In this document: piece by piece, positions 1-27,341 of the stretch
How positions within the stretch are numbered: the first letter of the stretch is position 1
Layout of the letters: every line of letters begins with the position of its first letter
Source of the DNA: a virus
Length of the DNA: 40,561 nucleotides
IMG/VR virus record: IMGVR_UViG_3300008448_008186
Span: 1 to 40,561 of that record
Reading direction: 5' to 3' (one strand)
The notes under the pieces: model-generated
The model's database searches: none
The model's input: the letters and a program-made list of their open reading frames with translations, nothing else
What the model was told of the DNA's origin: nothing
Program-made: the position numbers and the translations under genes

Positions 1-1011
1 TTTAAGGTTTATGTTGGTAACATGGATGATAAGGATGTTGAAGCTTACGTACAAAGAGTTGCAAACAAATTTAAAAGAGATCAAATTGTTGATTCTAAAA
101 CTGGTAACGTAGATTTAAGATTTAATCAGATGGCAGTTGACCAAGATTATTTTATTCCAGTAAGAGATGCAACACAAACAATGCCAATTGAGACATTACA
201 AGGTGCTGCAAACCTTTCAGAAATTGCCGATATTGAATATATACAAAAGAAACTTTTAACCGCATTAAGAATACCTAAAGCTTATTTAGGTTTTGAGGAA
301 CCTGTTGGTGATGGAAAAAATCTTTCATTACTTGATATTAGATTTGCAAGAACAATACACAAAATACAAAAAAGTGTTATTGCTGAATTAAATAAAATTG
401 CAATTATACATTTATTCCTTTTAGGATTTGAAGATGAATTACAAAACTTTACATTAGGTTTAACCAACCCATCTAAACAAGCTGATTTATTAATGGTTGA
501 GGTTTGGAAAGAAAAAGTTTTGTTATATAAAGATATGGTTACAGAAATACCTAACTCATTACAACCAACATCGGCAACTTGGGCTAAGAAACATATTTTT
601 GGATTCTCAGATGAAGAAATTAAAATGGAATTACAACAAATAAGATTAGAAAGAGCGGTGGCTGCTGAATTAGCAAATACCCCAACCATCATAACACACA
701 CAGGTTTCTTTGATACTGTGGACAAATTGTATAAAGTACAAACAGGTAGCACCCAAACCGCGGGAGCGGCACCAGCCGAAGGAGGAGCAGGGGCACCACC
801 ACCGCCGCCAGGAGGGGCACCACCACCACCGCCAGGAGGGGGAGGAGCTGAAGGCGGAGGACCCCCAATCCCTGAAAACTTTAAAAAAGATAATTTAAAT
901 TTACTTTTAGAAAGTGACGATATAACAGAAGATGAGTATATAGATTTATCAAAAGCCTCAAATTCTTTAGGGGATATAGAAAACGAGTTAGATAAATTAC
1001 TAAATAGCTAA
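1..1011 (+). CDS. gp20: Portal vertex protein, C-terminal part (T4 gp20-like), 5' truncated
   Basis: The portal is the dodecameric DNA gate at one head vertex. It nucleates prohead assembly and docks the terminase and neck. The reading frame is open from base 1 (FKVYVGN precedes the first ATG at 22), so the gene begins upstream of the window and 336 residues are visible. The segment with QIVDSKTGNV, the YFIPVR block, the IETLQGAANLSEIADIEY block and the YIQKKLLTALRIPKAYLG block follows the T4 gp20 C-terminal half in order. Unlike gp20 it carries a low-complexity extension (about residues 250-290) rich in Ala, Pro and Gly with two PPPPPGG runs, then an acidic tail ending in ENELDKLLNS. It is followed directly by a late-promoter-like motif and the next head gene. 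Family assignment is strong; the role of the extension is unknown. Confidence 0.9.
   Translation, partial: FKVYVGNMDDKDVEAYVQRVANKFKRDQIVDSKTGNVDLRFNQMAVDQDYFIPVRDATQTMPIETLQGAANLSEIADIEYIQKKLLTALRIPKAYLGFEEPVGDGKNLSLLDIRFARTIHKIQKSVIAELNKIAIIHLFLLGFEDELQNFTLGLTNPSKQADLLMVEVWKEKVLLYKDMVTEIPNSLQPTSATWAKKHIFGFSDEEIKMELQQIRLERAVAAELANTPTIITHTGFFDTVDKLYKVQTGSTQTAGAAPAEGGAGAPPPPPGGAPPPPPGGGGAEGGGPPIPENFKKDNLNLLLESDDITEDEYIDLSKASNSLGDIENELDKLLNS
765..867 (+). repeat. GC-rich Pro/Gly low-complexity tract in the portal gene
   Basis: A G- and C-rich patch in an otherwise AT-rich sequence, made of repeated ccaccaccgcca and ggagggg units. It encodes the PPPPPGG repeats of the portal extension. The repeat structure suggests replication slippage as its origin. 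Confidence 0.7.
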
Positions 1012-1031: not shown

Positions 1032-1754
1032 ATGAAGTTTGGAATTTTAAAATCTAAAATAGAAAAGTGTTTAATTGAATCATACAATAAAAATACATTT
1101 AAAGATAATATTTTTATATTTAACGAATTAGTAAAAAAAAATAAAAATATAAGTAAACTTTATTTTTTGTATGACGAACTTTCTTCAAAGAAAGGGTTAT
1201 CAGAATCCGTTGCAAATGATTTTATTAATGAGTCAATTATTATTTATGAAAACACTTTTAATAAAATTTCTAAAAAAAATTTAGAAGAAATTAAAATGTG
1301 GATTAATAACATAAAAACTAAAAATAACTATGAGGAGATTGATAATTTATTTTCTAATAGTGTTGTTATGTTAGAAAATAAATTACAAAGTAGAAAAAAA
1401 ATTGTTGAGTCTTTAAAGTCTGTGGAGGTTATATCGGAAAAAGGAAAAATAATTAATGTTCCTTTACAAGATATGGTGGATGTTGCAAATAAAACGGTAA
1501 ATGAATTTTTATCAAATATTAGCGAATCTGAAAAAAAAGAATTAATGACAATTATAAAAGAGGATGAAAATAAACTTATCGTTAAATTTGACTTTATTAA
1601 AGAAAATACATTAAAAAGACTTGATAGTATCTTAATTTCTGAGTCCGATAACGAAGTAAAGAAAACAATATTAGAGACAATAGAAAAAGTTAAAAATGAA
1701 ACTTTTAATAAAATTTCATATGTTAAACTAAAAAATTTAAATGAAAGTCTTTAA
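1032..1754 (+). CDS. Helical protein in the position of T4 prohead core genes, function unknown
   Basis: This 240-residue protein is very rich in Lys, Glu, Asn and Ile. It looks almost wholly alpha-helical, with probable coiled-coil stretches in residues 75-130 and 170-235. No catalytic motif, signal peptide or membrane segment is visible. It lies between the portal and the prohead protease, where T4 has the small core genes 67 and 68, so a role in the prohead core is a reasonable inference from position only. The start is set by a late-promoter-like motif 20 nt upstream and an A-rich leader. It ends in a 4-nt convergent overlap with the bS21 gene and is followed by a hairpin terminator. Confidence 0.6.
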   Translation: MKFGILKSKIEKCLIESYNKNTFKDNIFIFNELVKKNKNISKLYFLYDELSSKKGLSESVANDFINESIIIYENTFNKISKKNLEEIKMWINNIKTKNNYEEIDNLFSNSVVMLENKLQSRKKIVESLKSVEVISEKGKIINVPLQDMVDVANKTVNEFLSNISESEKKELMTIIKEDENKLIVKFDFIKENTLKRLDSILISESDNEVKKTILETIEKVKNETFNKISYVKLKNLNESL

Positions 1755-1936
1755 AGATTATTAAAGTTTTTTTGTCGATATTTTGCTTTATTTAAAATCT
1801 GTCTTTTAATGACAGATTTTTTTTTATATTCTTTTAGATCATTTAATAAACTATTTTGTCTTGTTTTAATTACCTTACTTTTTAACTCTTTTAAAGATCT
1901 CTCAATATCACCTTTCTTTACTTTGACTATTAACAT
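1751..1936 (-). CDS. rpsU: Phage-encoded small ribosomal subunit protein bS21
   Basis: bS21 sits on the 30S platform beside the 3' end of 16S rRNA and affects mRNA binding at initiation. The 61 residues align along their whole length with bacterial bS21: MLIVKVKKGDIERSLKELK at the start (family pattern: a hydrophobic strand, then K-x-G-(E)-(N)-I-(E/D)-R-A/S-L-K), a basic middle with KVIKT, the KKKSVIKRQ segment in place of the family's xKPSVxRR, and a basic tail. Compared with flavobacterial bS21 it lacks one residue after Gly9. Tyr53 in NKAKYRQ falls on the tyrosine (about position 54) that I recall as conserved in Bacteroidia and placed next to the sequestered anti-Shine-Dalgarno. The gene is inserted antisense in the head cassette, overlaps the upstream plus-strand gene by 4 nt and has no Shine-Dalgarno. 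A host-type promoter match lies just upstream, giving a very short leader. Confidence 0.85.
   Translation of the reverse strand: MLIVKVKKGDIERSLKELKSKVIKTRQNSLLNDLKEYKKKSVIKRQILNKAKYRQKNFNNL
1794..1825 (+). terminator. Rho-independent terminator
   Basis: AAATCTGTC pairs with GACAGATTT around a 7-nt loop and is followed by a run of T. It lies 40 nt after the stop of the helical head gene and inside the 3' part of the opposite-strand bS21 gene, so it must serve the plus-strand transcript. Confidence 0.75.
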
Positions 1937-1946: not shown

Positions 1947-1977
1947 TAAATTTATTTATATTGATATATACTCCAAA
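1947..1977 (-). promoter_or_regulatory. Candidate host-type promoter for bS21
   Basis: Read on the minus strand, TTTG (1977-1974), a 19-nt spacer and TAAATTTA (1954-1947) match the Bacteroidota consensus TTTG-N19/21-TAnnTTTG except for the final base. The start of transcription would fall a few bases before the ATG at 1936. Chance matches are likely in AT-rich DNA, so this is tentative. Confidence 0.4.
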
Positions 1978-1991
1978 ATTAAGTAAATTTA
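1961..1991 (+). promoter_or_regulatory. Candidate host-type promoter for the gene at 2026
   Basis: On the plus strand TTG (1961-1963), a 20-nt spacer and TAAATTTA (1984-1991) form a second partial match to the Bacteroidota consensus. It is divergent from and interleaved with the bS21 promoter candidate. The -7 octamer is the same palindrome in both directions. Confidence 0.3.
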
Positions 1992-2514: not shown

Positions 2515-3228
2515 ATGAAAATTTTAGGACCAAACGAAACCGGTAAAGGAATCCTTATTGAATACGACGCTGGGTATATCAACCCAAAAACAGAAAGTAA
2601 TCACTACATAATGGAATCTAAAACATTTTTAGACCACTCAAAACCATTTGAATTTTACGCTGTTTTACAAAAATATAATACACCAAATAGAAATGGTAGA
2701 ATATATCCAGAAAAAGTATTAAAAAGAGAGGCCGAAAATTATAAAAAATTGATTGAGAAAGGAACTTCTCTGTCAGAACTTAATCACCCTGAATCTTCAC
2801 TTATAGATCTTGATAGAGTGTCTCATATAATAACTGAGGTATGGTGGGACGGTCCTGTACTTTTAGGAAAATTAAAATTACTTACAAGTCCTGGATTTCA
2901 CGAAAGAGGGATTGTATCAACAAAAGGGGATATGGCGGCTAACTACTTAAGACAAGGTGTTACTTTAGGTATATCTTCTAGGGGAGTTGGTTCATTAAAA
3001 AAGGTTGGGGAACAAAACGAAGTACAGGATGATTTTGAACTTATTTGTTTTGATTTAGTATCATCACCATCAACTCCAGGGGCTTATCTATTTTTAGATA
3101 AAAATGATAGAATAAAATTTGATGAAAATTTAGAAGAAGATAAAAAAATGGCAGTAGAAAGAAATATTGGAGAAACTGGAAATAAATCTCTTGACTTAAT
3201 GAAAAGATTGTCCGATTATTTGAAATAA
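2515..3228 (+). CDS. gp21: Prohead core maturation protease (T4 gp21-like, peptidase family S21/U9)
   Basis: This serine protease digests the scaffold and trims capsid and internal proteins after (I/L)-x-E during head maturation. At 237 residues it is close to the T4 enzyme in size. The fold landmarks are in order: NTPNRNGRIYP (residues 55-64), the His of ELNHPESS (His91), the serine of LGISSRGVG (Ser154 or Ser155) and the aspartate in FDLVSSPSTPGA (Asp180). These match the conserved blocks of herpes and phage prohead proteases. The N-terminal part and the short acidic C-terminus may be trimmed by self-cleavage, as in T4. It is followed 9 nt later by a small gene and then by the scaffold and capsid genes, the canonical order. 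Likely cleavage sites can be seen in the capsid protein (INE|A) and in several other products of this window. Confidence 0.92.
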   Translation: MKILGPNETGKGILIEYDAGYINPKTESNHYIMESKTFLDHSKPFEFYAVLQKYNTPNRNGRIYPEKVLKREAENYKKLIEKGTSLSELNHPESSLIDLDRVSHIITEVWWDGPVLLGKLKLLTSPGFHERGIVSTKGDMAANYLRQGVTLGISSRGVGSLKKVGEQNEVQDDFELICFDLVSSPSTPGAYLFLDKNDRIKFDENLEEDKKMAVERNIGETGNKSLDLMKRLSDYLK

Positions 3229-3236: not shown

Positions 3237-3452
3237 ATGGAACAAGGAGAAAAATATTTTGTCGCAAAAATTACATCTGATTTATTAGATTCAGAATCAG
3301 GTAAAGTTAAAAAAGTAAAAGAAGAAAAGTTAGTATTGGGTTATACACCAACTGATGTAGAAGCTAAAGTAACTAAAGTTTATGAAAATTACACCATGGA
3401 TTGGAGGATTACTTCAATTACCGAAAGTAAAATAGATGAGGTGATAGAATAA
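3237..3452 (+). CDS. Small DUF4494-like protein
   Basis: A 71-residue protein with the pattern YFVAKI ... KVKEEKLVLGYTPTDVEAKVTKVYE ... WRITSITESKIDEVIE. This resembles the DUF4494 proteins common in Bacteroidota and their phages (a short strand, then a substituted L-V-x-x-x-(S/T)-x-T-(E/D)-A-E motif, then a strand and an I/T-rich end). I recall no established function for that family. It sits 9 nt behind the prohead protease and before a hairpin terminator, so it is almost certainly co-transcribed with the protease. The family assignment is from pattern memory only. Confidence 0.6.
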   Translation: MEQGEKYFVAKITSDLLDSESGKVKKVKEEKLVLGYTPTDVEAKVTKVYENYTMDWRITSITESKIDEVIE

Positions 3453-3578: not shown

Positions 3579-5177
3579 ATGAGTAGAAAAACAGTAGTAG
3601 AAGAGGCAGTTATTCAAATGAAAAATTTGGAGGACGCTCTTAAAGAAAATGCAAAAGGAATACTTGCATCGACAATGAGGCAAGAAATCAATTCTTTAGT
3701 AAAAGAATCTCTGAAAGAACAAGATGAGGTTGAGGTTGATGATGAAGAAGAGGCGGTTATTGCATCGCCTGAGGGAGAAGAAGACGTTGAGGTTGATGAT
3801 GAAGAAACTTTTGACGTAGAAGACGACGAAATGGATGACGTAGAAGACGACGAAATGGATGACGTAGAAGACGACGAAATGGATGACGTAGAAGACGACG
3901 AAATGGCGGATGTTGGTATGGTAGGGGCTGACGACGAAGAAACCATTGACATGAGAGGAGCAAGTGACGAAGATGTTGCTATCGTCTTTTCAAAAATGGG
4001 TAAAAACGATAAAGTTTCAATTGAGAAAATTGGAGATTACTATGACTTAAAGGATATGGAAAATGACACAGAATACATTATAAAACTTAATGAATCTGAA
4101 GAAGATTATTTAAATGAGTTTGATAGTGAAGAAACTTTATATGAACTTGAGGTCGGAGATGACTCTATGGGTGGTGACATTGGTTTAGGTGAAGACATGA
4201 TGACTTATGAAGATATGAGTTATGAAGATGAACTTGGTGAAGACATGATGACTTATGAAGATATGAGTTATGAAGATGAACTTGGTGAAGACATGATGAC
4301 TTATGAAGGCATGGACGGATTGTACGATGATGAACTTGGTGAAGACATGATGACTTATGAAGATATGAGTTATGAAGATGAACTTGGTGAAGACATGATG
4401 ACTTATGAAGATATGAGTTATGAAGATGAACTTGGTGAAGACTCTTGGTCAAGTATGAGTGACGAAACAGATAAATTCAAAGTTAATGAATCTAAACAAA
4501 AAACAGGTAGTGCGTCTAAATTCAAATATAGTAAAAAACCAAACCAAGAAGGTGGATTTAATACAAAAATGAAAGAAGGTTCTAAACGTTATGGAAAATC
4601 AGGTAAAGCTAAATTTGATTTCGATAATGAAGATCCTAATTCAGAAATTGTTATGAAAATTATAAACAAAATAAAAGGAGGTAAAAAATCTGAAACTAAA
4701 GAAGCTTCAAGAACTTTAGGGGCTGGGAGAAGATTTGGTAGAAAAGGTTTAAATAAACCAGTTGCAGCACCAAGACATTTAAAAGAAGAAGTTGAGATTC
4801 TAAGAGAAAAGAACGATGAATATAGAAAAGCTTTAGATTTGTTTAGAACAAAATTAAATGAAGTGGCTGTTTTTAATTCTAATTTGGCATACGCAACAAG
4901 ATTGTTTACCGAACACTCAACAACAAAACAAGAAAAAATTAATATTTTGAGAAGATTCGATAACGTTGAATCTTTAAAAGAATCCAAAAGTCTTTATCAA
5001 ATACTTAAAAATGAACTATCAAATAATACATTGTCTGATAAAAGTATAAATGAATCTATTAACAGAACTGTTATGAAAGCACCCTCTACAGGGTCAGCGG
5101 TTAATTTAATTGAATCTAAAACATACGAAAACCCTCAATTTTTAAGAATGAAAGACTTAATGGGTAAATTAAAATAA
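3579..5177 (+). CDS. gp22: Prohead scaffold protein with acidic repeats (T4 gp22-like by position and architecture)
   Basis: The scaffold fills the prohead and is degraded by the protease before DNA packaging. The 532-residue product has an N-terminal helix (KTVVEEA to about residue 47, including EINSLVKESLKE), then a very acidic region: four copies of an 8-residue DVEDDEMD unit and five copies of a 16-18-residue LGEDMMTYEDMSYEDE unit. It then becomes basic (about residues 305-400) with a coiled-coil segment (EEVEILREKNDEYRKALDLF and on) and ends in MKDLMGKLK. It is about twice the length of T4 gp22, mostly because of the repeats. Position between protease and capsid gene and the coiled-coil C-terminus support the assignment. 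There are LxE or IxE candidate cleavage sites, for example LKE at 45-47 and IESK near the C-terminus. Confidence 0.8.
   Translation: MSRKTVVEEAVIQMKNLEDALKENAKGILASTMRQEINSLVKESLKEQDEVEVDDEEEAVIASPEGEEDVEVDDEETFDVEDDEMDDVEDDEMDDVEDDEMDDVEDDEMADVGMVGADDEETIDMRGASDEDVAIVFSKMGKNDKVSIEKIGDYYDLKDMENDTEYIIKLNESEEDYLNEFDSEETLYELEVGDDSMGGDIGLGEDMMTYEDMSYEDELGEDMMTYEDMSYEDELGEDMMTYEGMDGLYDDELGEDMMTYEDMSYEDELGEDMMTYEDMSYEDELGEDSWSSMSDETDKFKVNESKQKTGSASKFKYSKKPNQEGGFNTKMKEGSKRYGKSGKAKFDFDNEDPNSEIVMKIINKIKGGKKSETKEASRTLGAGRRFGRKGLNKPVAAPRHLKEEVEILREKNDEYRKALDLFRTKLNEVAVFNSNLAYATRLFTEHSTTKQEKINILRRFDNVESLKESKSLYQILKNELSNNTLSDKSINESINRTVMKAPSTGSAVNLIESKTYENPQFLRMKDLMGKLK
3813..3908 (+). repeat. Four tandem 24-bp repeats in the scaffold gene
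   Basis: The unit starting gacgtagaagacgacgaaat occurs at 3813, 3837, 3861 and 3885. The first three are identical at the base level and the last differs only at its end. It encodes DVEDDEMD. The lack of silent changes indicates recent expansion. Confidence 0.9.
4185..4430 (+). repeat. Five tandem 48/54-bp repeats in the scaffold gene
   Basis: Units start at 4185, 4233, 4281, 4335 and 4383. Four are 48 bp and nearly identical; the third is 54 bp and encodes LGEDMMTYEGMDGLYDDE instead of LGEDMMTYEDMSYEDE. A sixth partial unit (LGED) follows. Confidence 0.9.
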
Positions 5178-5246: not shown

Positions 5247-7154
5247 ATGGGAGCATTATTAGAATCAGGTCTTGTTGGTAACATTGGTCTTAAGCACCTT
5301 AAAGTTATCAAAGAAGATACAATTAACAAATGGGACAGATTAGGGTTCCTTGAAGGTCTTAGAGGCCACCTAAAAGAAAACGTAGCACAGTTATATGAAA
5401 ACCAAGCTTCTTTCTTAATTAACGAAGCAACTTCTGAAACTTCTAACGGAGCATTCGAAACAGTTGTTTTCCCTATCGTAAGAAGAGTTTTCTCTAAATT
5501 GTTAGCGAACGATATCGTTTCTGTACAAGCAATGAACTTACCTATTGGTAAATTGTTCTACTTCGTACCTCGTATCCAAGGATATAATCCTGACGCAACA
5601 CCTTCAGCACCAGACGGTGGAGTACATTACTCACCAATTGGTTCTCCTCAAGCACTTGCTGATGATACAAATAATGTTGGTCAAGGTTATCCAGGTACTG
5701 TTACATTCCCTAATGGTAATGGTAACGCACCTTACACAAAAAATCTTTATGATTTATTTTACGAAGGTTCTGAGGCGTCTTTAGATCCTCCAGGGTTATT
5801 CGATTATTCAAAAGGACAATGGACTGCAGTTACTCAACCTGCCATTGCTATGGTATGGTCTGGTTCTGATTTAGTACCGGCAGATCAAGAGTTTGATGGA
5901 GAAAATACAAGAAAAATGATTATCAAACTTTGTGGATTTAATAATGCAGGTGTTGGAAAATTAATTGGTCCTGATGGTAATGAAATTGATACTGAAACTT
6001 TCCTTTCAGATCTTAAAATAGTTGCTAACTTAGATCAATTATCAGCAGGAACTCAATGTCCTAATTTGGATCCTATTACTCCTCAATCTACTTTATCCGC
6101 TCCATTATTGTTTAGAGTTGTTACTCAAATTTATGGAAAAGGAATTGTACAACCTACCTCAACTACAACACCAACTATTTGGTCTTCAACAGGTAATGGA
6201 GGTTCTTACAATGATATTTGTTCACAAGATGGTTGTATCTTCTTAGAAGTAGATCTTTCTTGTCCAGCATGTGCTGATTGTGGAGCAACTACTTTAGATG
6301 GTTATACAGGTACTACAATAGAAGGAATTGGTGATAATAGTAGTCAATCTTTGGCAACTGCACCATTCCAAGCGGTATATAGAAGATATAAAAACTTAGA
6401 ATTCGAAGATCAAATTGGTGAAGTTTCTTTTGACCTTGAGTCAGTTACTGTATCTGTTACAGAAAGAAAACTAAGAGCACAATGGTCACCTGAATTAGCA
6501 CAAGACGTTGCGGCATTCCACAATATCGACGCTGAAGCTGAATTAACGGCTTTATTGTCTGAACAAGTGGCGGCTGAAATCGATAGAGAAATCTTGAGAG
6601 ACCTTAGAAAAGGAGCGGCTTGGAACCTAAGATGGGATTATAACGGATGGAGAAGACTACAGTTAACAACTTCTTACACTCAAAAAGATTGGAATCAGAC
6701 TTTGATTACAGCAATTAACCAATTGTCTGCTCAAATTCACAAATCAACTTTAAGAGGTGGAGCTAACTGGATCGTTGTTTCTTCTGAAGTATCTGCTATC
6801 TTTGATGACTTAGAGTACTTCCACGTATCTAACGCATCTCCTGAACAAGATCAGTATAACATGGGTATTGAAAGAGTTGGTACTTTGTCAGGACGTTACC
6901 AAGTTTACCGTGATCCTTACTTCCCACCAAATCAAATTTTGATCGGACACAAAGGAACATCATTGTTAGACACAGGTTACATCTACGCACCGTACGTACC
7001 TCTACAATTAACACCTACAATGTACAACCCATTCAACTTCACACCAATCAAAGGTATTATGACAAGATACGCTAAGAAAATGGTTAATAACAGATTCTAC
7101 GCAAGAATCACAGTTGATGGAGTTAGAACATTCGACTTAAGAGAATTGAGATAA
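5247..7154 (+). CDS. gp23: Major capsid protein (T4 gp23-like) with a large insertion
   Basis: This is the HK97-fold subunit of the head lattice. The N-terminal region, the VRRVFSKLLANDIVSVQAMN block (residues about 79-98), the TVSVTERKLRAQWSPELAQD block, the DAEAELTALLSEQVAAEIDRE block and the C-terminal RYAKKMVNNRFYARITVDGV region all follow gp23. By analogy with T4 (cut after Glu65), INE|ATSE at Glu60 is the predicted maturation cleavage. The 635-residue length exceeds gp23 (521) mainly because of an insertion of roughly 250 residues between about 110 and 375. That insertion contains a Cys-rich stretch (QDGCIFLEV then LSCPACADCGATT). Codon choice changes there: the conserved parts favour C-ending codons (ttc, aac, tac), the insertion uses T- and A-ending ones. 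The leader is A-rich; a strong terminator with a GAAA loop follows. Confidence 0.95.
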   Translation: MGALLESGLVGNIGLKHLKVIKEDTINKWDRLGFLEGLRGHLKENVAQLYENQASFLINEATSETSNGAFETVVFPIVRRVFSKLLANDIVSVQAMNLPIGKLFYFVPRIQGYNPDATPSAPDGGVHYSPIGSPQALADDTNNVGQGYPGTVTFPNGNGNAPYTKNLYDLFYEGSEASLDPPGLFDYSKGQWTAVTQPAIAMVWSGSDLVPADQEFDGENTRKMIIKLCGFNNAGVGKLIGPDGNEIDTETFLSDLKIVANLDQLSAGTQCPNLDPITPQSTLSAPLLFRVVTQIYGKGIVQPTSTTTPTIWSSTGNGGSYNDICSQDGCIFLEVDLSCPACADCGATTLDGYTGTTIEGIGDNSSQSLATAPFQAVYRRYKNLEFEDQIGEVSFDLESVTVSVTERKLRAQWSPELAQDVAAFHNIDAEAELTALLSEQVAAEIDREILRDLRKGAAWNLRWDYNGWRRLQLTTSYTQKDWNQTLITAINQLSAQIHKSTLRGGANWIVVSSEVSAIFDDLEYFHVSNASPEQDQYNMGIERVGTLSGRYQVYRDPYFPPNQILIGHKGTSLLDTGYIYAPYVPLQLTPTMYNPFNFTPIKGIMTRYAKKMVNNRFYARITVDGVRTFDLRELR

Positions 7155-7174: not shown

Positions 7175-7206
7175 AAAGGAGATAAGAAATTATCTCCTTT
7201 TTTTGT
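7175..7206 (+). terminator. Strong rho-independent terminator after the capsid gene
   Basis: AAAGGAGATAA (7175-7185) and TTATCTCCTTT (7190-7200) form a perfect 11-bp stem closed by a GAAA tetraloop and followed by a T run. Confidence 0.92.
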
Positions 7207-7300: not shown

Positions 7301-9394
7301 ATGAAAAATTCTCTACTTATTTTTTTTCTTATACTAACAAGTTTTTTTGTTAGGTCACAAGTAAGTTCTTATACGTTTGGAACATCAACCGGAACTTATA
7401 CACCAATAGTTGGGGGTAGTAACTACGATAACTTTACAAATTGGACAAATAGTAGTTTTAACGGAACTACCGGTTTTTTTGACGATGTAAGTTCATCCGC
7501 CTTAGAATCAATTGGTTTTAACTTTATTTATAATGGCACAACATATACCCAATTTGCGGTAAACACCAATGGTTTTATAACATTAGGGGGTTTACCAACT
7601 AACAGTTATTTACCACTATCAACAGGTACGTCAAATAATGTAATATCCGCAATGGGAACCGATTTAATTGGTCGTGGTTCGTTAATTATGACAGTAACTA
7701 GCGGGTCACCTATTATTACGATTACAGGTGGTGATATTAACTTAATATCAGTTGGTGATAAGGTACAAGGAAACGGCATCCCAACCGCTGTAATCCCAAC
7801 CGTTATTTCTAAAACCGCAACGACTATAACAATTTCATCAAATGCTACAGGAACAGGGAGTAATAGACATTTAAGATTTTCAAGGTCAGGATTTGGTATT
7901 AGATTTCAAACAATAGGTACATCACCTAATAGGACATTAGTGGTTCAATGGACAGGATGGCAAAGATATACAACTTCAGGTGCGTTTGGTGAATTATATA
8001 ATTTTCAGATAAGATTAAATGAAACTACTAACACAATTAATATCGTATATAATATACAAGGACCAACAAGTACAACTGCAACAACGTTTCAAATTGGGTT
8101 AAGAGGATCGTTAAATACGGATTTTAATAATAGAACAACCACAACAAATTGGTCATCAACCACCGCAGGAACATTAAACAGTTCAACTGTAACACTTTCA
8201 AATACTGTAAAACCAACTTCAGGATTAACTTATACTTGGACACCGCCCGTTATTCCCGTTTGTTCAGGAACACCAAACCCAGGAAACACACTTTCTTCTT
8301 CATTAACATCACCACCAAACGGAACCGTAAATCTCTCACTACAAAACACTACAACTGGTACAGGAGTAACTTATGTGTGGGAGAGTAGTCCAGATAATTC
8401 AACATGGACAACTTTTGGTACCTCGTCGGCAACACAAACGTCACCACCAATTACATCACCTACTTGGTTTAGATCTACCGTTACTTGTTCAGGAAATAGT
8501 GGGATATCAACACCTATTCAAATAACATTATCATATTGTACATATAACATAACCAATAATGACCCTACAGGTATTACTTCCGTAACGTTTGGTACAATAT
8601 CAAATACAAGTATTGGTAATCCTGCATATAGTGATTTTACCACACAATCAACTAACGTAGAACAGGGTGGGATTTATCAATTAAATGTTAAAGTAAACAC
8701 AGATGGTAATTGGACAGTAAATACAAAAGTTTGGATAGATTGGAACCAAAATTACGTATTTGAAGTAGGAGAAGAGTATTCTTTGGGTAGTGCATTAAAC
8801 ACTACTAATGGGATTACATCACTATCCCCTTTAAATATAACTGTACCAAGCGGAGCAACTTTAGGAGAAACTCGAATGAGAATAGTATCAGTTGAAGCTA
8901 GCGATCCTGCACCACTATCGTGTGGTACACAACTTTACGGTGAAGCTGAGGATTATAAACTAACAATAACACCACCAACAGGACTTCCTGTTGAGTTATT
9001 ATACTTTGAGGGTTCACCATATCCTTCGTTTAACTCGCTTAAGTGGTCAACCGCATCAGAACACAACTCAGATTACTTTGATATAGAGAGAAGTATTGAT
9101 GGTGAGATATGGAAGGTTGTTGGTAATAAATTGGCTTCAGGTAATAGTACGGTTGTTATTAATTATAGTTATTTAGATTCTTTTGATGATTTGGTAATAC
9201 ATTACTATAGATTAAAACAGGTTGACTATGATGGTCAATATAAGATGTACGGACCTATTGGTTTAGATAATACAAAATCATTTAAAAAAGTTGTTAAATA
9301 CATCAACCTTATAGGGCAAGAAGTTAATTCAGATACAAAAGGATTTATATTTGAGGTATATGAAGACGGGACTATGAAAAAAATTATTAGATAA
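7301..9394 (+). CDS. Secreted protein with Ig-like, GEVED and T9SS-sorting-like regions
   Basis: The 697-residue product looks like a Bacteroidota surface protein, not a virion core protein. Residues 1-20 (MKNSLLIFFLILTSFFVRSQ) form a typical Bacteroidota Sec signal peptide with cleavage near SQ. Residues about 25-315 form a beta-rich domain, interrupted at about 128-190 by a module of the GSPIIT / VGDKVQGNGIP / TITISSNATGTGS type seen in phage tail and adhesin proteins. An Ig-like domain follows (about 320-410, YVWESSPDNSTWT and WFRSTVTC), then a GEVED domain (about 413-557, WIDWNQNYVFEVGEEY, GEAEDYKLTI). Residues 561-655 have the LPVELLYF / WSTASEHNSDYFDIERS / YYRLKQVDYDG block that typically precedes T9SS C-terminal signals. 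The end (NLIGQEVN ... GFIFEVYEDGTMKKIIR) resembles a short type A sorting domain. It lies between the capsid terminator and a convergent small gene. Role unknown: host-surface alteration or virion decoration are both possible. Confidence 0.8.
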   Translation: MKNSLLIFFLILTSFFVRSQVSSYTFGTSTGTYTPIVGGSNYDNFTNWTNSSFNGTTGFFDDVSSSALESIGFNFIYNGTTYTQFAVNTNGFITLGGLPTNSYLPLSTGTSNNVISAMGTDLIGRGSLIMTVTSGSPIITITGGDINLISVGDKVQGNGIPTAVIPTVISKTATTITISSNATGTGSNRHLRFSRSGFGIRFQTIGTSPNRTLVVQWTGWQRYTTSGAFGELYNFQIRLNETTNTINIVYNIQGPTSTTATTFQIGLRGSLNTDFNNRTTTTNWSSTTAGTLNSSTVTLSNTVKPTSGLTYTWTPPVIPVCSGTPNPGNTLSSSLTSPPNGTVNLSLQNTTTGTGVTYVWESSPDNSTWTTFGTSSATQTSPPITSPTWFRSTVTCSGNSGISTPIQITLSYCTYNITNNDPTGITSVTFGTISNTSIGNPAYSDFTTQSTNVEQGGIYQLNVKVNTDGNWTVNTKVWIDWNQNYVFEVGEEYSLGSALNTTNGITSLSPLNITVPSGATLGETRMRIVSVEASDPAPLSCGTQLYGEAEDYKLTITPPTGLPVELLYFEGSPYPSFNSLKWSTASEHNSDYFDIERSIDGEIWKVVGNKLASGNSTVVINYSYLDSFDDLVIHYYRLKQVDYDGQYKMYGPIGLDNTKSFKKVVKYINLIGQEVNSDTKGFIFEVYEDGTMKKIIR

Positions 9395-11519: not shown

Positions 11520-12128
11520 TTAATTATTTAATCCGTTTTGACCACCTAAAGTAATCATATTTAATTGTGTTACTTGGGTACCATAGCCGTCTGTCCATTC
11601 TGGATGAGGTGGATTTACGCTTACAACGGTATTACCTTCAGGAGTACATATTTCTAAACACATATCAACTTCTGTGTTTGCACTTCTCGGTGAAATTCCA
11701 CAACTACAGTCGGAATATGGTACAGAAATTGTGTAAACACTAGAAGTTATAGCTTCAATATACCCATAAACTTCAAAGCAATCACATTCTACGTCATTAC
11801 ATATTGTGTAGAAATTACCAATTGGCCATTCAGTAAATTGATTTGGATTTATTAAAATGTCTTCGTCAACTCCATTACACGCTGAAGCTAAAAAAGCAAA
11901 TGCGTCACTCTGTAAACATTCTAAACAATTTTCATAACTATCTACTATAACGTTTATAGTACCATCAGGTGGGTCTAAAGTTACAGAATCAATAGTATAA
12001 CAACCAGATTCAATATCTTCACCTATTATTAAACTAAGATAATAGATACTACCTAATACCAATGTATCAACACCTGAGTCAACGATTCGTGTTCCACCAC
12101 CACAATTTGTTATTAAATAATTTGCCAT
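11520..12128 (-). CDS. Cys-rich virion-associated protein, unknown
   Basis: The 202-residue protein is beta-rich and acidic, with many Cys in CxxC, CxC and CxCxC spacing (CLECLQ, CNDVECDCFEVYGY, CSCG, CLEICTPEG). It starts MANYLITNCGGGTRIVDSG. It appears to consist of two or three small beta modules, each of the form strand, xCY-x-I, x-D-S-V. I do not recognise a named family. The style resembles the Cys-rich middle of the adhesin-like protein at 37.1-39.3 kb. It is transcribed with the 485-aa structural protein 13 nt upstream. The lack of a signal peptide argues that it is a virion part. Confidence 0.6.
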   Translation of the reverse strand: MANYLITNCGGGTRIVDSGVDTLVLGSIYYLSLIIGEDIESGCYTIDSVTLDPPDGTINVIVDSYENCLECLQSDAFAFLASACNGVDEDILINPNQFTEWPIGNFYTICNDVECDCFEVYGYIEAITSSVYTISVPYSDCSCGISPRSANTEVDMCLEICTPEGNTVVSVNPPHPEWTDGYGTQVTQLNMITLGGQNGLNN

Positions 12129-12141
12129 ATTTTTATTTTTT

Positions 12142-13599
12142 TTACTTTTTATTCACTATTTGAAATTTTATTTGTTTCTTATAAGTATTTACTTCACCAG
12201 AAGAAATTACCTTTAAATCAACATAATATTCATTTGGTATTTTATCTCTTGTATCAAATATGAAATAATACTCATTTGGTGTTCTATTTATTTTTGTCCA
12301 ATCTTGAACTTGCACTTCTGTTGTTCCTTCTCTAACATAAACTCTATAATAAACATCAACATTTGGTAATTGTTTGTTTGTTGTATAAGCTTGTTTTACA
12401 ATAACCCCAACTTTTCTAACATCAGTGTTTAATATCATTTCATCTTGTTTAATACCATAATAATCAAAACCATAAACAGATGGTGAATTTGTTGATGTGC
12501 CTAATTGTATAGATTTTTGAATTGGGTAAATTGTAAAGTCATTATATATGTCAGGTAAATTAAATCCGTTTAATTTAATATTTGACCATGTGTCATTAAA
12601 TATACAAGGAGTTTTATACCCAATTAATGGTGGTATTATAACTTCATAAACTCCTTTTGTTTTTTGACATGACTGAATATTAATTAACCCTTGTATGGGA
12701 TCTCCAGAAGAATCTGAAATTGTTACTTTTGGTAATTCGTCTAAGTTTTGGAAATCTCCGTCTTGATAAATGTATAAATACAATTTGTTAGTTTTACCTA
12801 GTGTAAAATTATTTCTATCATCTTCTATTAGATCATTATAAGATGTTTCTAAAAATGGTTCATAAAAAGTCTGAGTGTGTCTTGAAAAGAAACCTACAGA
12901 ATACATCCCTGTAGTCCCCGATAAATTTTCAACTTGAGGTAAAAACGCAACCCCCCAACCAACAGGATTAATTAAATCCCCTTTCAATAATGAGTTGATC
13001 TCTTCGGTCATATCAAATTCAATATCCTCATCCCCAAATTCAAAATGTTGTTGATCAATTATGGTTAAAGCAGAATAAGGGGTTAATCCTGTATTTAAAT
13101 TATTATAAATTCCAGGCTCTTCCCAAAAATCTATTGTTGTTGTTTGATACCAATTAGATGGTCTATCTGAAAAATTTTTATCGTTTGGTACTGAGGACAT
13201 AATGTCGGCATAGTCATAACCAACACCTTCATCCCATTTTTGTGGTTTATTAGGATCTAAATCAACATATGGAATTCTAAATAATATTAAATCAAAAGAA
13301 GTGGCTCTTAACCTTCCTTGAGATGTTTTTTCATTTAAAAAATCTTTATTAAAAAAACACGTATTTGTCATGCGTAAAGTATGTTTAACATTTACACATA
13401 AAGGATTTATAAAACCGTTATTATATTTTTCTTTTAAAAGAGTTAAATCAAGATCAAAAATAAATCTACTAAATCCTTTTGGGTTTAATAAAGTATCATT
13501 ACCATAAAATAGCTCAACTACAGGGTTTCTACCTGTATTTGTTAAACTATTGGAAATTAAGGTATTGTTCCTACTAAAATATGAATTATTAATTGACAT
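12142..13599 (-). CDS. Virion structural protein, probably tail or baseplate periphery
   Basis: This 485-residue protein is rich in beta strand and aromatic residues, with no signal peptide, membrane segment or catalytic motif. The N-terminal half has a jelly-roll-like pattern (FSRFIFDLDLTLLKEKY ... HTLRMTNTCFF ... FDLILFRIPYVD ... TTIDFWEEPGIY ... FDMTEEINSLLKG ... GWGVAFLP). The C-terminal half has two Ig-like or fibronectin-like modules (KLYLYIYQDGDFQ ... and VDVYYRVYVREGTTEVQVQDW ... YYVDLKVISSGEVN). That architecture suits a tail-attached or baseplate-attached protein. It opens a three-gene block with its own late-promoter motif 20 nt upstream and follows the baseplate OB-fold gene. Confidence 0.65.
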   Translation of the reverse strand: MSINNSYFSRNNTLISNSLTNTGRNPVVELFYGNDTLLNPKGFSRFIFDLDLTLLKEKYNNGFINPLCVNVKHTLRMTNTCFFNKDFLNEKTSQGRLRATSFDLILFRIPYVDLDPNKPQKWDEGVGYDYADIMSSVPNDKNFSDRPSNWYQTTTIDFWEEPGIYNNLNTGLTPYSALTIIDQQHFEFGDEDIEFDMTEEINSLLKGDLINPVGWGVAFLPQVENLSGTTGMYSVGFFSRHTQTFYEPFLETSYNDLIEDDRNNFTLGKTNKLYLYIYQDGDFQNLDELPKVTISDSSGDPIQGLINIQSCQKTKGVYEVIIPPLIGYKTPCIFNDTWSNIKLNGFNLPDIYNDFTIYPIQKSIQLGTSTNSPSVYGFDYYGIKQDEMILNTDVRKVGVIVKQAYTTNKQLPNVDVYYRVYVREGTTEVQVQDWTKINRTPNEYYFIFDTRDKIPNEYYVDLKVISSGEVNTYKKQIKFQIVNKK

Positions 13600-17639: not shown

Positions 17640-18389
17640 TTATTTTAAAAGATCATTTATAATTTCTTGATATATTTTTTTATATCTTTTAAGGGAATTA
17701 CGTATTTCTTTAGTTGATAAATTAGTCATTTCCCTTATTTCAAACAAAACAACGTTTTTGTTAAATTTGTTATTGTTTGTATCGTCAACAAATATATTAT
17801 TATAATTTTTAAAAATTTCCATAAGAGCCTGACCTAACTTAACTTCTTGTTCATTAATATTTTTTTCATCCATAGAATCACCTAATTTAATAATAAATTT
17901 ATTTATTATTTCTTCTGTAGATACATCATCATTATCAATGTGATAAATCATATCAGGGGCGTTATGTAAATCCGCCGAAATGTCCTCATAAGAAACTTTA
18001 CGATTCATATCTTTTTGATCTTTTAAAATCTGACCCATAAGATAGTTTTTACATATAGTCCCAAAATAAGAATATGCTTTTTTTTCTTTTGATGGCTTAA
18101 ACTTATCAATTTTAGTCATCAAAAATGAATGAGTATCAATATGAATTTCCTCAAAGTTCATATCTTTTCTATATAATTTATATCGTCTTATTATTGACGA
18201 TATCATTTTGTCTAAGGGAAATCTTAAATAATCATTATAAATTTTATTCTTTTCATCCATTGTGGTTGCGGTTAGATACATCCTAACCGCATTTTCTTCT
18301 GGCTCATCAAAATAATTATTTAACTTAGGTTTTCTTCCCTTCTTTTTCTTTTCATTCGTTTCTTCGTTTAAATTAGTTTCTAAATTCAT
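17640..18389 (-). CDS. gp55: Late-transcription sigma factor (T4 gp55-like)
   Basis: Phage late sigma factors redirect host RNA polymerase to late promoters. The 249-residue product has a basic N-terminus (EKKKKGRKPKLNN), then a sigma region-2-like segment at about residues 55-140: LDKMISSIIRRYKLYRKDMNFEEIHI, FLMTKIDKFKPSKEKKAYSYFGTICKNYLMGQILKDQ. That carries the pattern (F/D)-x-x-x-x-I-D-K-F-x-P-x-K-x-x-x-A/F-x-S-Y-F known from region 2. The C-terminal part has a helix-turn-helix-like end (REMTNLSTKEIRNSLKRYKKIYQE), close to region 4. T4 gp55 is shorter (185 aa). Start and upstream stop overlap as TAATG. It lies beside the late tail genes that carry the TATTTATnATAAAA motif, its likely target. 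Confidence is good for a sigma-like factor, moderate for late function. Confidence 0.75.
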   Translation of the reverse strand: MNLETNLNEETNEKKKKGRKPKLNNYFDEPEENAVRMYLTATTMDEKNKIYNDYLRFPLDKMISSIIRRYKLYRKDMNFEEIHIDTHSFLMTKIDKFKPSKEKKAYSYFGTICKNYLMGQILKDQKDMNRKVSYEDISADLHNAPDMIYHIDNDDVSTEEIINKFIIKLGDSMDEKNINEQEVKLGQALMEIFKNYNNIFVDDTNNNKFNKNVVLFEIREMTNLSTKEIRNSLKRYKKIYQEIINDLLK

Positions 18390-19195
18390 TAAACCTCTTG
18401 GGGTTCATATTTTATTTCTCTTTGTTTAATATAGAAAAATTCTTTTTTAGCAGAATCTATCCAAAACTTAACTTCATCCTCACTTAGTCTTTCATCCCCA
18501 TTTTTATAATTCCAAAATATAGAACCCTCTCTAAGGTTGACATGTTTATAACCAATTTTAGGGATACTCATAATTTTAACAGAATTCTGAGTTAATCTTA
18601 AAAAGAACTCATATCCAAAAGTTAGTTTTATGTTGTTTTTTAAACTACCATTATTAATAAACTCTTCTTTTTTAACTAAAATTCCTGAAAATTGAAAATT
18701 TTGATAATTAAGTAATGTTTCATTAGTTAAAAGTCCTAGCTCTTGTGATATATTTGCTGCAAAAGTTGCTTCATTTGTAAACCCAACAAAAACCCCTTGT
18801 TCGTTAACATCGACAACTATTGGTAAAAATACACCAACATTTTTATAAATATCCATATATTTTTTTGCATTTTTAAACCATATGTTTGAGTACTCATCGT
18901 CAAATTCTAAAAATGAGACCCATTCAGAATTTGAAGATGAAACACCAAAATTAATTTGATCTGCAAAATTAGGATCTTTTTCCCAAAGTAATTTAACAAC
19001 ATTTAAACCATCAAAATCATAAGAATTAATATGATCAACCAAAGAAGTTTCGTCACAATAAACTATTATTAATTCATTTATGTATTCTTTTTGATTTTTG
19101 ACAGAGGTGATACATTTGTTAAAGTAATCCTCAAAATTTCTAACTTTACCAGATTTTATAGGTAAAACCACAGATATTGTATTTTTATTTTCCAT
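18389..19195 (-). CDS. GT-A glycosyltransferase (GT2-like)
   Basis: A 268-residue family 2-type transferase. It starts with the nucleotide-sugar strand ISVVLPIKSGKVRNFEDYFNKCITSV. The metal-binding acidic motif is in VSFLEFDDEYSNIWF (about residues 92-106) and the acceptor-side region carries GYEFFLRLTQNSVKIMSIPKIGY. No membrane segment is visible, so a soluble or peripheral enzyme is expected. It is coupled to the sigma gene by a TAATG overlap and 3 nt from the next transferase. Substrate cannot be told from the sequence. Confidence 0.8.
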   Translation of the reverse strand: MENKNTISVVLPIKSGKVRNFEDYFNKCITSVKNQKEYINELIIVYCDETSLVDHINSYDFDGLNVVKLLWEKDPNFADQINFGVSSSNSEWVSFLEFDDEYSNIWFKNAKKYMDIYKNVGVFLPIVVDVNEQGVFVGFTNEATFAANISQELGLLTNETLLNYQNFQFSGILVKKEEFINNGSLKNNIKLTFGYEFFLRLTQNSVKIMSIPKIGYKHVNLREGSIFWNYKNGDERLSEDEVKFWIDSAKKEFFYIKQREIKYEPQEV

Positions 19196-19198
19196 ATT

Positions 19199-20257
19199 TT
19201 ATATTGTTTCTAATTTATTTAATTGTGATTCAAAATTCTCTAATCTTGTTGATATTATTTGATTAAAAAACTCAATTACATCTGTGTTAAATTTTTCGTC
19301 AGTAGATAAATTTTCAGATGTTTTTTCCATGTTATCATATAATTCAGGATTAATATTATCCTCTAGCCAATTTTGAATAAAGTCGGCAATAACATCTGGA
19401 AACATATTTTTATTATTAATCCAAACCCCATTATCTTCATTCATCCAATTAGGGACTAAATTAGGTACTAAACCTATTACAGGGATTCCCATTTTTATTG
19501 ACTCTAAAGGAAAAGTACCCCATCCACTAACCTCATCAATCCAAACTGAAACAAAACTTTCTTTCATTGCATCTGAAAATTCAGTTTCAGATAATCCCCT
19601 TAAATCTCTAAAGGTAATCCATCTATATTGAGGAAATTTTGCGTAAAATGTTTTTATTAAATTTGTAGTATCTCTATGTTCTCTTGTATGGATTGAAACA
19701 ATGGTTTTAGGTGGGGCCTGTTGTTTTTCAAAAACATTAGAAATCTTAGGTTCAATAACATCTATAGAAATATTTCTAACAACATTTTTAATATATTCTT
19801 TTTGATTTTCAGATGTTGTTAAACATTTAAAGAAACCTAAAAGGGGCCATGTTTGACCTGGTTGTAAAGTTTCAAAAATATGATCATATGCTTGGCACAG
19901 AACAATTTTACCACAAGGTAAATTTGTTATTTGGTCCATCACAAACCCATATATTTCTGGTATAATAATAAAATCTTCAGGAGAAACATCTAAATTTGTA
20001 CCTTCTATTGCTTTGTGTGGTAATTCGTTCATATATTCATCCCCAAGCCAATTTGCAACACCGTAATAATCTGGTTTTTCATGCAATATAATAGGATTAA
20101 AACCTTCTTTTTTAAGTTCTAACGCTATATGATAAATGTATCTAATTGATGCCTTAGCGTTTCCTTTAGTGTCTTGTACAAGAAAATATATTCTTGATTT
20201 TTTGTCTTTCATGTTTTGAATAGACTTTTCTAATTTTGATATCTGTTCAGTATTCAT
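19199..20257 (-). CDS. GT-B glycosyltransferase
   Basis: The 352-residue protein has two Rossmann-like halves. The N-terminal half includes RIYFLVQDTKGNAKASIRYIYHIALELKKEGF (about 22-53). The C-terminal donor-binding half includes VSIHTREHRDTTNLIKTFYAKFPQYRWITF and the typical VSGWGTFPLESIKMGIPVIGLVPN segment near residue 245, which carries the conserved Glu of GT4-like folds (FPLESI). Substrate unknown. It belongs to the run of tightly packed minus-strand genes and shows no membrane segment. The phrase SVWIDEVSGWG just before the donor motif is typical of glycan-cluster transferases. Confidence 0.8.
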   Translation of the reverse strand: MNTEQISKLEKSIQNMKDKKSRIYFLVQDTKGNAKASIRYIYHIALELKKEGFNPIILHEKPDYYGVANWLGDEYMNELPHKAIEGTNLDVSPEDFIIIPEIYGFVMDQITNLPCGKIVLCQAYDHIFETLQPGQTWPLLGFFKCLTTSENQKEYIKNVVRNISIDVIEPKISNVFEKQQAPPKTIVSIHTREHRDTTNLIKTFYAKFPQYRWITFRDLRGLSETEFSDAMKESFVSVWIDEVSGWGTFPLESIKMGIPVIGLVPNLVPNWMNEDNGVWINNKNMFPDVIADFIQNWLEDNINPELYDNMEKTSENLSTDEKFNTDVIEFFNQIISTRLENFESQLNKLETI

Positions 20258-20261
20258 AGTT

Positions 20262-20516
20262 TTATAATTTGTTTATTATTTTTTTTATTAGTAGAGTATT
20301 AAATGCAACTTTAAAAGGTATTGACAATTCACTATTTTTTAAACCCAAATTATCATCAATTTCGTTACTTTCGGTTAAAACAGTCTCTAACATAGATTTT
20401 ATTGTTTCATACTTAACCAAATGTATTTGAGGTTCCCCACTTAAACTTGTTATATTAACATAGTCATCTAATACATCAAGATCAATGTAATAGTTTTCAT
20501 TAAAAATTTTGAACAT
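20262..20516 (-). CDS. Small hypothetical protein
   Basis: An 84-residue protein with an N-terminal beta-hairpin-like part (MFKIFNENYYIDLDVLDDYVNI, then EPQIHLVKYETIKSMLETVL) and a helical C-terminus (FKVAFNTLLIKKIINKL). It overlaps the HAD-like gene by 17 nt and precedes the GT-B gene by 4 nt. Its position suggests translational coupling. I recognise no family. Confidence 0.55.
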   Translation of the reverse strand: MFKIFNENYYIDLDVLDDYVNITSLSGEPQIHLVKYETIKSMLETVLTESNEIDDNLGLKNSELSIPFKVAFNTLLIKKIINKL

Positions 20517-21183
20517 CGTAATTTATTTTTTTAATTATACCTTCAAATTCAGATAAAGATTTTATTGTGTATTTGACAGGTATTTGTTTATTATAATCAG
20601 TTTCATATTTTATTAAAATTTTATCCTGATAACTATTTAATAATAAGTTAGGATTTGAGGTAAGTAAAATATCTACTTCATCAAACATTTTATTTTTTGT
20701 TAGTTCACTATAAAAAAATACTTTTTCGATTAAACACCCAAATTTAGAGAGAAAAAATAGTGAAGATGGTTTTGATTTACCTATCTCATCGGACACAATT
20801 AATATATCGTATTCATCTCTTAAATTATAATATATTTCATTTAGTATATTAAAAGTGTTAATTTCTGATGAAGGAGAATGGCCAAAAATTTCCATAGTAT
20901 ATTCTTCATACATAAATGAATATAATTCATCTTTAGATTTAAATTTAAAATGATTCAATAAGTCTAAAGAATTTACATCACTAATAATTTCGTATTTAAA
21001 TGGTTCTGTAGATTCTTTTTTAGAAATATCTAAATACTCATCCTCATCTAATTTAAAATCCAACTCATATGATTCTAATTCGTTATTTTGATCAGAATCA
21101 ATTAAATGTTTTTCATAAATTTGCTTAAATTTACCTAAAGTATCTCTAAGAACACCGTTAACCTCAATCCCTATTCTCTTCAT
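20500..21183 (-). CDS. HAD-like protein with altered catalytic motif
   Basis: The 227 residues begin MKRIGIEVNGVLRDTLGKF, aligning with HAD motif I (hhhDhDGhLhDT) but with Glu7 and Asn9 where the nucleophile and acid/base aspartates belong. Downstream are YDILIVSDEIGKSKPSSLFFLSKFG (motif II serine and motif III lysine region, about 133-157) and VDILLTSNPNLLL (about 169-181), the place of motif IV acids. The fold therefore looks like a HAD phosphatase/nucleotidase, but the key Asp pair is lost, so it is probably not a phosphatase. A binding or regulatory role is possible. It overlaps the PhoH gene by 20 nt and the 84-aa gene by 17 nt. Confidence 0.6.
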   Translation of the reverse strand: MKRIGIEVNGVLRDTLGKFKQIYEKHLIDSDQNNELESYELDFKLDEDEYLDISKKESTEPFKYEIISDVNSLDLLNHFKFKSKDELYSFMYEEYTMEIFGHSPSSEINTFNILNEIYYNLRDEYDILIVSDEIGKSKPSSLFFLSKFGCLIEKVFFYSELTKNKMFDEVDILLTSNPNLLLNSYQDKILIKYETDYNKQIPVKYTIKSLSEFEGIIKKINYDVQNF

Positions 21184-21898
21184 ATTCTGCTAAAATTTTA
21201 CTGATTAATGGATTACGAACATTTTTAGCGTTTCTAAAATCATAAACACCAATGTCTGGAATACCTTTAAATCTTTGTAGAGCGTCATAAAGACCGGATT
21301 GTTTTTTATCTTTGTACCGGTCAGTCTGTTCTAAATCACCAGAAATAAAAAATTTACTATTAAAACCGATTCTTGTTAATAATAATTTCATTTGATTTGG
21401 TGTTGAGTTTTGAGCTTCTTCAAAAATTAATATTGAGTTGTCAATGTTCATTCCCCTCATATAGGCCAAAGCAAACACCTCAATAATTTCAGCTTCTTTT
21501 AATTTTTCTCTGGATTCCTTCCCAATAATTTTATTTAAAAGGTAATAAGATGGAAAAATATATGGATCTAACTTTTCCTCAAGGTTACCGGGAAGTGAAC
21601 CAAGTTTTTCTTCGGCCTCAACCGCCGGTCTTACAATAATGATCTTTTCATATGAATTATCCGGGTCTATAAGTAAATCAACCGCAGCTTTCATTGCAAT
21701 ATAAGATTTACCGACTCCGGCTGGTCCTGATGCAATTGTGATTTGATTTGTTTTTAAAATGTTGTAATAATCTTCTTGGTGTTCAGATAAAAATTTATTT
21801 TTTTGTTTTTTCTTTATTACTGTATTTATAAAGTCTTTTTTTGATGCTATTGGTACTGATGATTCTTCTTTCTGATGTATAGGTTTTTTTCTTGTCAT
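21164..21898 (-). CDS. phoH: PhoH-like ATPase
   Basis: PhoH proteins are P-loop ATPases (RNA helicase-like core) frequent in marine and T4-like phages; the phage role is unsettled. The 244-residue product has Walker A GPAGVGKS (residues 58-65), Walker B ILIFEEAQN (156-164), and the TRIGFNSKFFISGDLEQTD segment (175-193). It also has IIIVRPAVEAEEKLGSLPG (87-104), which is diagnostic of PhoH. The N-terminal 40 residues are basic. It is co-directional with the glycan genes and HAD-like gene, and its 3' end overlaps the latter by 20 nt. Confidence 0.92.
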   Translation of the reverse strand: MTRKKPIHQKEESSVPIASKKDFINTVIKKKQKNKFLSEHQEDYYNILKTNQITIASGPAGVGKSYIAMKAAVDLLIDPDNSYEKIIIVRPAVEAEEKLGSLPGNLEEKLDPYIFPSYYLLNKIIGKESREKLKEAEIIEVFALAYMRGMNIDNSILIFEEAQNSTPNQMKLLLTRIGFNSKFFISGDLEQTDRYKDKKQSGLYDALQRFKGIPDIGVYDFRNAKNVRNPLISKILAEYEENRD

Positions 21899-21903
21899 TT
21901 TTT

Positions 21904-23103: not shown

Positions 23104-23106
23104 ATA

Positions 23107-23934: not shown

Positions 23935-23938
23935 AATA

Positions 23939-24643: not shown

Positions 24644-24646
24644 AAT

Positions 24647-26772: not shown

Positions 26773-26777
26773 ATTTA

Positions 26778-27329: not shown

Positions 27330-27341
27330 TTTTTTTTATTT

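Follow-up and report, generated by a model that had tools for sequence, protein, structure and literature searches.

A phage bS21 gene antisense in a T4-like head cassette lacks a host-type Shine-Dalgarno sequence and contains a putative antisense terminator

The 61-aa ORF at 1751–1936 on the minus strand of the window (the whole stretch of 40,561 nt that was analysed, IMG/VR record IMGVR_UViG_3300008448_008186) was confirmed to be a bS21, with profile matches just under the curated cut-offs and direct sequence matches to known bS21. This phage rpsU has an ATG start, lies antisense in a head cassette, shows no host-type Shine-Dalgarno (SD) sequence and encodes a protein that has lost the Gly27 and Pro41 of the host proteins. 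The reading that we prefer, with a probability of about 0.5, is that an altered bS21, made free of host autoregulation, would enter the 30S subunit and keep the anti-SD hidden. The kind of gene and its place have already been described (Chen et al., 2022; PMC9723584), and its regulatory features are the addition made here. Of all ribosomal protein genes, the one for bS21 is reported to occur most often in phages, and in Bacteroidia the protein both takes part in hiding the anti-SD and senses its own supply.

In Pfam, PF01165 (Ribosomal_S21) matched residues 4–55 of the product over profile positions 2–54 of 55 (E 8e-6), with 25.9 bits against a curated cut-off of 27, and in NCBIfam TIGR00030 (S21p) gave 22.9 bits against a curated cut-off of 28.95. 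E-values were significant and coverage was full-length, both cut-offs being narrowly missed. A phmmer search of PDB sequences returned only two chains at E ≤ 1, and both were bS21: 9i5v_9 (E 7e-4) and 7jil_z (E 1.5e-3). The latter is the bS21 of Flavobacterium johnsoniae, and its Tyr54 was aligned to Tyr53 of the window protein. The original prediction of a full-length bS21 with a Tyr corresponding to the Bacteroidia-conserved one near position 54 is thus confirmed, the PDB matches giving direct similarity to structurally known bS21 and the profile matches staying just below their cut-offs. PHROGs contained no match to the phage bS21 at E ≤ 0.1, and when bacterial genomes were scanned with the window bS21 as protein query no relative was returned, the short-pattern search used for it being too narrow at such distance.

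The bS21 gene was found in the midst of genes for head proteins. In the window it is preceded by the C-terminal part of the portal protein gp20 (22–1011, plus strand; PF07230, Portal_T4, E 3.6e-42), which runs off the window or is cut, and by its convergent neighbour orf240 (1032–1754, plus), the 3′ end of which overlaps the 3′ end of bS21 by 4 nt. On the other side, the divergent neighbour orf155 (2026–2493, plus), defined from the ORF list and the locus comparison, is followed by the prohead protease (2515–3228, plus; PF03420, Peptidase_S77, E 3.6e-22) and the major capsid protein (MCP) gp23 (5247–7154, plus; PF07068, Gp23, E 4.4e-73). No Pfam family was found for orf240 or orf155. At least 224 stretches in IMG/VR encode a relative of the window bS21; in the best 80 of these plus the window, bS21 was located between orf155 and orf240, and in the opposite direction to these two, in 81/81 loci, with protease in 77, portal in 77 and MCP in 55, the remainder being contig ends or genes out of reach. 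The predicted antisense position in a T4-like head cassette is therefore upheld. Two further scans with divergent relatives, together with loci from a DNA-pattern scan, brought the number of loci examined to 339, of which 235 contained bS21 and 234 of these were readable in full with 60 nt upstream. After leaving out one unrelated jumbo phage (LR745206.1) and one host locus, 232 loci remained, which represent 83 distinct relatives (by CDS plus 60 nt upstream) and 72 distinct proteins.

Other products of the head module were observed besides. The ORF at 3237–3452 (plus) encodes a 71-aa protein corresponding to the last half only of DUF4494 (PF14902, profile positions 70–137 of 139, E 4e-7). A protein in the scaffold position (3579–5177, plus) contains repeated acidic blocks (ELGEDMMTYEDMSYED and EDDEMDDV repeats) and had no significant Pfam match. 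Directly after the MCP gene, an ORF of 697 aa (7301–9394, plus) was found whose start resembles a signal peptide and which has a GEVED domain (PF20009, E 8e-19), a secreted-type Bacteroidota protein inside a phage head module.

A setting of this kind had been held to be unknown in the original prediction, but it is the one described by Chen et al. (2022; PMC9723584), who reported 47 freshwater Bacteroidetes phage genomes with a reverse-strand bS21 among genes for terminase, portal, protease and MCP. They found residue 54 to be aromatic in all 61 phage bS21 proteins, remarked on the divergence in the N-terminal helix, and proposed that phage bS21 replaces the host protein in ribosomes. As in their clades a–e, the window gene lies on the reverse strand between two hypothetical genes of a terminase-portal-protease-MCP cassette, the terminase falling outside the window. 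As in their AT-rich large myoviruses, of which two relatives found here (290.7 and 290.9 kb) are reminiscent, an aromatic residue 54, nearby glycan genes and a variable C-terminus are present. Compared with clades a–e as presented in that paper's main text, no difference was found that would exclude membership, and as far as could be tested the window gene would be a further member of this bS21-phage group. The missing host-type SD, the sigma-A-like promoter, the in-gene antisense terminator and the loss of Gly27 and Pro41 are additions to that main text, which names no SD loss, promoter element, antisense terminator or Gly27/Pro41 loss; the words proline, glycine, Pro41 and Gly27 are absent from it, and the sequence logos may show the loss of the two residues. 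Three of these points (antisense terminator in the ORF, missing host-type SD, loss of Gly27 and Pro41) were not part of the original prediction either. A long minus-strand block at 17640–34220 with genes for glycosyltransferases, a hexapeptide transferase and methyltransferases accords with the polysaccharide genes reported by Chen et al. (2022).

Another viral bS21, from a different group of phages and hosts, is that of Pelagiphage HTVC008M, which enters E. coli 70S ribosomes (Mizuno et al., 2019; PMC6375957). Flavobacterium phage vB_FspM_immuto_3-5A (MW353176, Immutovirus) has portal, protease and MCP in the same order, its MCP being ~41% identical to the window MCP over 52% of the query. 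In a 19.6-kb region of this phage no bS21 was detected (best 5.9 bits, E 0.75), nor did anything match orf240 or orf155 at E ≤ 0.1.

The SD energy was calculated for the 22 nt that precede the start codon, paired with an assumed 13-nt 16S tail. The window bS21 gene gave +2.0 kcal/mol, which is far from the extended SD, below −13 kcal/mol, of an SD-autoregulated rpsU. None of a first set of 36 distinct phage bS21 genes reached −4 kcal/mol, and among all 83 distinct genes none was at or below −7 kcal/mol and a single one at or below −4 (−5.1). In contrast, host rpsU showed values between −22.1 and −17.5 kcal/mol in 80/80 loci, chosen for the highest similarity to F. johnsoniae bS21 and mostly from Flavobacterium, so that the comparison is with Flavobacterium-like genes. 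Thirty phylum-wide rpsU loci, a biased draw made up of the best-scoring from the 197 of 198 genomes with a match (27/30 without Tyr at 54), reached −7 kcal/mol in 25 cases and −13 in 20, with five short of −7. A strong SD before Bacteroidota rpsU is usual, not universal. As predicted, the phage itself uses almost no SD sites: 1 of 46 chosen window genes reached −7 kcal/mol, and the cassette neighbours were SD-less too (0 at −7 kcal/mol for each of five genes).

In F. johnsoniae, an extended SD before rpsU is read by bS21-lacking ribosomes and controls bS21. Loss of bS21 or the Y54A change raises SD-driven rpsU reporters (3-fold for Y54A) and lowers initiation on SD-less mRNA, on which ribosomes without the bS21 C-terminus initiate poorly (McNutt et al., 2023; PMC9976891). 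In Bacteroidia, the C-terminal aromatic residue of bS21 stacks on the anti-SD. The phage gene is similar to this system in protein family, in Tyr54 and in the SD-less messages elsewhere, but differs in that the host gene has an extended SD and the phage gene none. In discussing phage bS21, McNutt et al. (2023) suggested that its loss would be countered by host autoregulation, and their passages on phages contain nothing on the SD of phage bS21 genes. If our preferred reading holds, phage bS21 would be made at a rate independent of free anti-SD, with a supply that does not follow the host sensor, and would exchange into host 30S subunits. With the anti-SD kept hidden, SD-less phage messages would be read, and host rpsU, having a strong SD, would also be held at the low translation level of replete ribosomes.

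The intergenic region between bS21 and orf155 was shown to be strongly conserved, with TAnnTTTG, the −7 box of the main Flavobacterium sigma factor (PMC9723704, PMC6847099), followed three bases on by TATATATCAA. In the window, TAATTTTG at 1974–1981 (minus) fits the Bacteroidota TAnnTTTG and the alignment of relatives, which supports the host-type, sigma-A-like promoter predicted for bS21. The conserved TATATATCAATATAA element just downstream of this box (1956–1970, minus) is a putative start-site region or operator. Of the 83 distinct relatives, 70 have TAnnTTTG in the 80 nt before bS21 and 79 have TATATATCAA upstream of it, the other four having one-base or two-base variants, and both were combined in 62. 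TAnnTTTG alone is common in the AT-rich window (86 sites vs 78 in shuffles), and a sigma-70 scan gave fewer promoter-like sites than shuffles (20 vs 31.5). Exact TTTGNNNTATATATCAA was found once per record in 6/6 long records, each time at bS21, and the conserved element occurred upstream of none of the five cassette neighbours examined. An element specific to bS21 everywhere was nevertheless rejected: the exact pattern is present in at least 120 viral stretches, and in only 19 of these 120 listed is it upstream of a family bS21, although it was directly upstream in 19/19 listed stretches that hold a family bS21.

The head genes were found to have a different motif. A candidate phage promoter motif, TATTTATAAT, precedes orf240 (1012–1021, plus) and was also found at 2494 (before the protease), 5197 (before MCP) and 39960 (before the ORF at 39983). 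Among distinct upstream regions of the relatives, TATTTATAA was present before orf240 in 49/63, before the protease in 27/57 and before MCP in 18/48, and it was missing before bS21 (0/66), orf155 (0/63) and orf71 (0/62); we infer that TATTTATAA is a late promoter. This bears on the late-gene model of Chen et al. (2022), by which bS21 is made with the capsid genes and tunes ribosomes for bulk structural protein synthesis. Their metatranscripts include bS21 transcripts in late-stage infections, with bS21 levels in three active phages similar to those of a neighbour and of late genes (PMC9723584), and the constant position in the head cassette (81/81 loci) points the same way; late bS21 transcripts are not what a sigma-A-type promoter alone would predict. 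However, bS21 carries this sigma-A-like box instead of the TATTTATAA of orf240, protease and MCP. Moreover, Chen et al. (2022) wrote that bS21 and the opposite-strand gene “may each be transcribed together” and named no strand-specific protocol, and the words promoter, terminator, antisense, stranded and strand-specific do not occur in their main text; with reads of unresolved strand, antisense transcripts running on from orf240 would be scored as bS21. We regard the late-gene model as rather unlikely. Together with the antisense terminator described below, the distinct type of promoter calls into question the reading of these published late-expression data, which as presented in the main text are possibly strand-unresolved.

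Within the bS21 codons, on the plus strand and thus in the direction of rightward orf240 transcripts, an intrinsic-terminator-like hairpin was detected at 1794–1826, consisting of a 10-bp stem with three G-C pairs and a 7-nt loop (stem 1794–1820), followed by a T run. A strict scan of the whole window, which required a perfect 8-bp stem with three G or C and a T run, gave three sites on the plus strand: the one in bS21, another 22 nt downstream of the MCP stop (7176–7200) and a third at 18267. From the hairpin after MCP it can be seen that terminators of this kind are in use in the head module. Terminator-like sites are not rare by chance (2 found vs 1.6 expected from shuffles in 6.5 kb), so the weight of the one in bS21 rests on its conservation. 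The core stem was found in 35 of the 83 distinct relatives, the window included, and in 0/80 host genes, and in six of seven long records it was present once each. On the bS21 strand the stem codons read TCT GTC nnn nnn AGA CAG A and include GTC and CAG, which are rare in the window (3.8% of Val and 11.7% of Gln codons, respectively). A synonymous redraw for a set of 35 proteins gave an expected 0.034 core stems, against 21 of the 35 observed. On a tree of protease and orf155, comprising the 77 of 83 relatives that have both genes, the 34 carriers required seven changes, at least four of them forced on well-supported branches. The invariance of the stem codons is partly by construction, as rows were chosen by the stem, and the evidence lies in the redraw, the rare GTC and CAG and the separate branches; recombination of bS21 alleles could also scatter the hairpin over the tree. 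Together, this points to a clade-patchy, codon-level feature that is probably under selection on the opposite strand.

The hairpin might alternatively be an RNA element of the bS21 mRNA that acts on stability or as a translation pause, as a perfect inverted repeat can form a hairpin from each of the two strands and this one was detected on both. We consider this unlikely, since the T run is found only on the orf240 strand: the strict scan gave a terminator there in 35/35 carriers and 0/48 others, and on the bS21 strand, at or downstream of its 3′ end, in 0/83, and the head module has just one further strict site, the one after the MCP stop. The 48 non-carriers had no other strict site in the searched region, and a looser scan gave one weak site each in two of them. 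A family-wide terminator was thus rejected (absent in 48/83), and the hairpin is not essential to the system. Also rejected was the idea that the change from the host KPS motif to KKS in the phage protein was caused by the T run of the antisense terminator, because Lys or Arg is present there in 72/72 proteins, including those of the 48/83 loci without the hairpin. As regards our preferred reading, the in-codon terminator would stop rightward head-gene transcription before bS21 in the window and about two fifths of the relatives.

Compared to 80 host proteins, the phage bS21 has lost residue 11 and shows fixed or almost fixed replacements (72/72 distinct proteins each), namely Asp13 to Glu, Tyr19 to Leu, Asp24 to Ile, Gly27 to Arg/Lys, Thr28 to Gln, Arg33 to Asn and Pro41 to Lys/Arg. 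The same deletion, the lack of Gly27 and Pro41 and many fixed differences separate it from F. johnsoniae bS21. Gly27 and Pro41 were present in all host proteins (80/80 and 30/30). Residue 54 was found to be aromatic in 72/72 phage proteins (64 Tyr, 7 Phe, 1 His). AlphaFold2 predicted a single helix (11–59) for the phage protein (mean pLDDT 89.8, pTM 0.50) and three helices (12–26, 30–37, 41–63) for a host control (mean pLDDT 76.2, pTM 0.33), models of isolated small helical proteins with 19-row alignments each that give a hint only. The two-helix form, broken at the TG-motif Gly, was accordingly not recovered in the phage protein, Gly27 being gone and one helix predicted, which hints against an unchanged fold, not against descent. 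No significant match came from a fold search with the phage model (six hits, best E 4.3, all in mitochondrial small subunits), and in the control search with the host model bacterial ribosome chains came first, none at E ≤ 0.001 (best E 0.05). With both helix breakers and many rRNA-facing residues lost, the protein might no longer fit the bS21 site, a point against our preferred reading. In that reading, the mRNA-facing difference from host bS21 would be set by the altered N-terminal half, where Gly27 and Pro41 are gone and Arg33 and Tyr19 are replaced by Asn and Leu, respectively.

The same changes could make bS21 a poison subunit for host shut-off, leaving ribosomes poor at host messages and not in a host-like state. 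The pelagiphage bS21 cuts the activity of E. coli ribosomes to ~5% (PMC6375957); it is the only viral bS21 known to have been put into ribosomes, here those of a foreign host, and the drop suggests either poisoning or a missing factor. Gly27 and Pro41, found in every host protein, were retained in 0/72 phage proteins, and the models show one long helix where host helices are broken at these two places. However, these are the isolated, 19-row models mentioned above, the aromatic residue that faces the anti-SD was kept, and the phage itself depends on these ribosomes to read its late messages, which have no SD; this makes poisoning improbable. Between the two options of the original prediction, a hidden anti-SD fits better, given the aromatic residue 54 in 72/72 proteins and the 3-fold effect of Y54A on reporters (PMC9976891). 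The other option, in which the anti-SD is exposed by phage bS21, with the result that host rpsU control is disturbed or SD-led phage genes are favoured, could appeal to the changed N-terminal half but is very unlikely, because residue 54 stayed aromatic and with an SD in 1/46 window genes at −7 kcal/mol the phage would gain little from such opening.

Only tentatively, and with more doubt than we attach to the preferred reading of a hidden anti-SD, can all features be joined in one scheme. A reshaped bS21 that kept the C-terminal anti-SD clamp and lost both helix breakers, encoded by a gene cut off from the host SD sensor, might lock ribosomes in an SD-blind state and turn off the host's sole means of bS21 resupply by filling bS21-less subunits, while its codons might double as a terminator of the opposing late head transcript and so separate bS21 from capsid transcription. 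The SD-less phage copy offers a clean test, namely whether in infection host rpsU translation is low and ribosomes are still SD-blind.

Elsewhere in the window, a 330-aa ORF at 36060–37052 (minus) matched LETM1_RBD below threshold (E 1e-3, 19.1 bits, cut-off 25.3), which may be a coiled-coil effect. In another large phage (LR756508.1), the frame from 9696 (plus) contains a bS21-like ORF (profile E 9e-10) located ~2.3 kb before MCP and on the same strand as MCP, with the KPS motif kept. In the 634-kb phage LR745206.1, bS21 at 12001–12168 (plus) shares 50% identity with the window protein and carries KKS instead of KPS.
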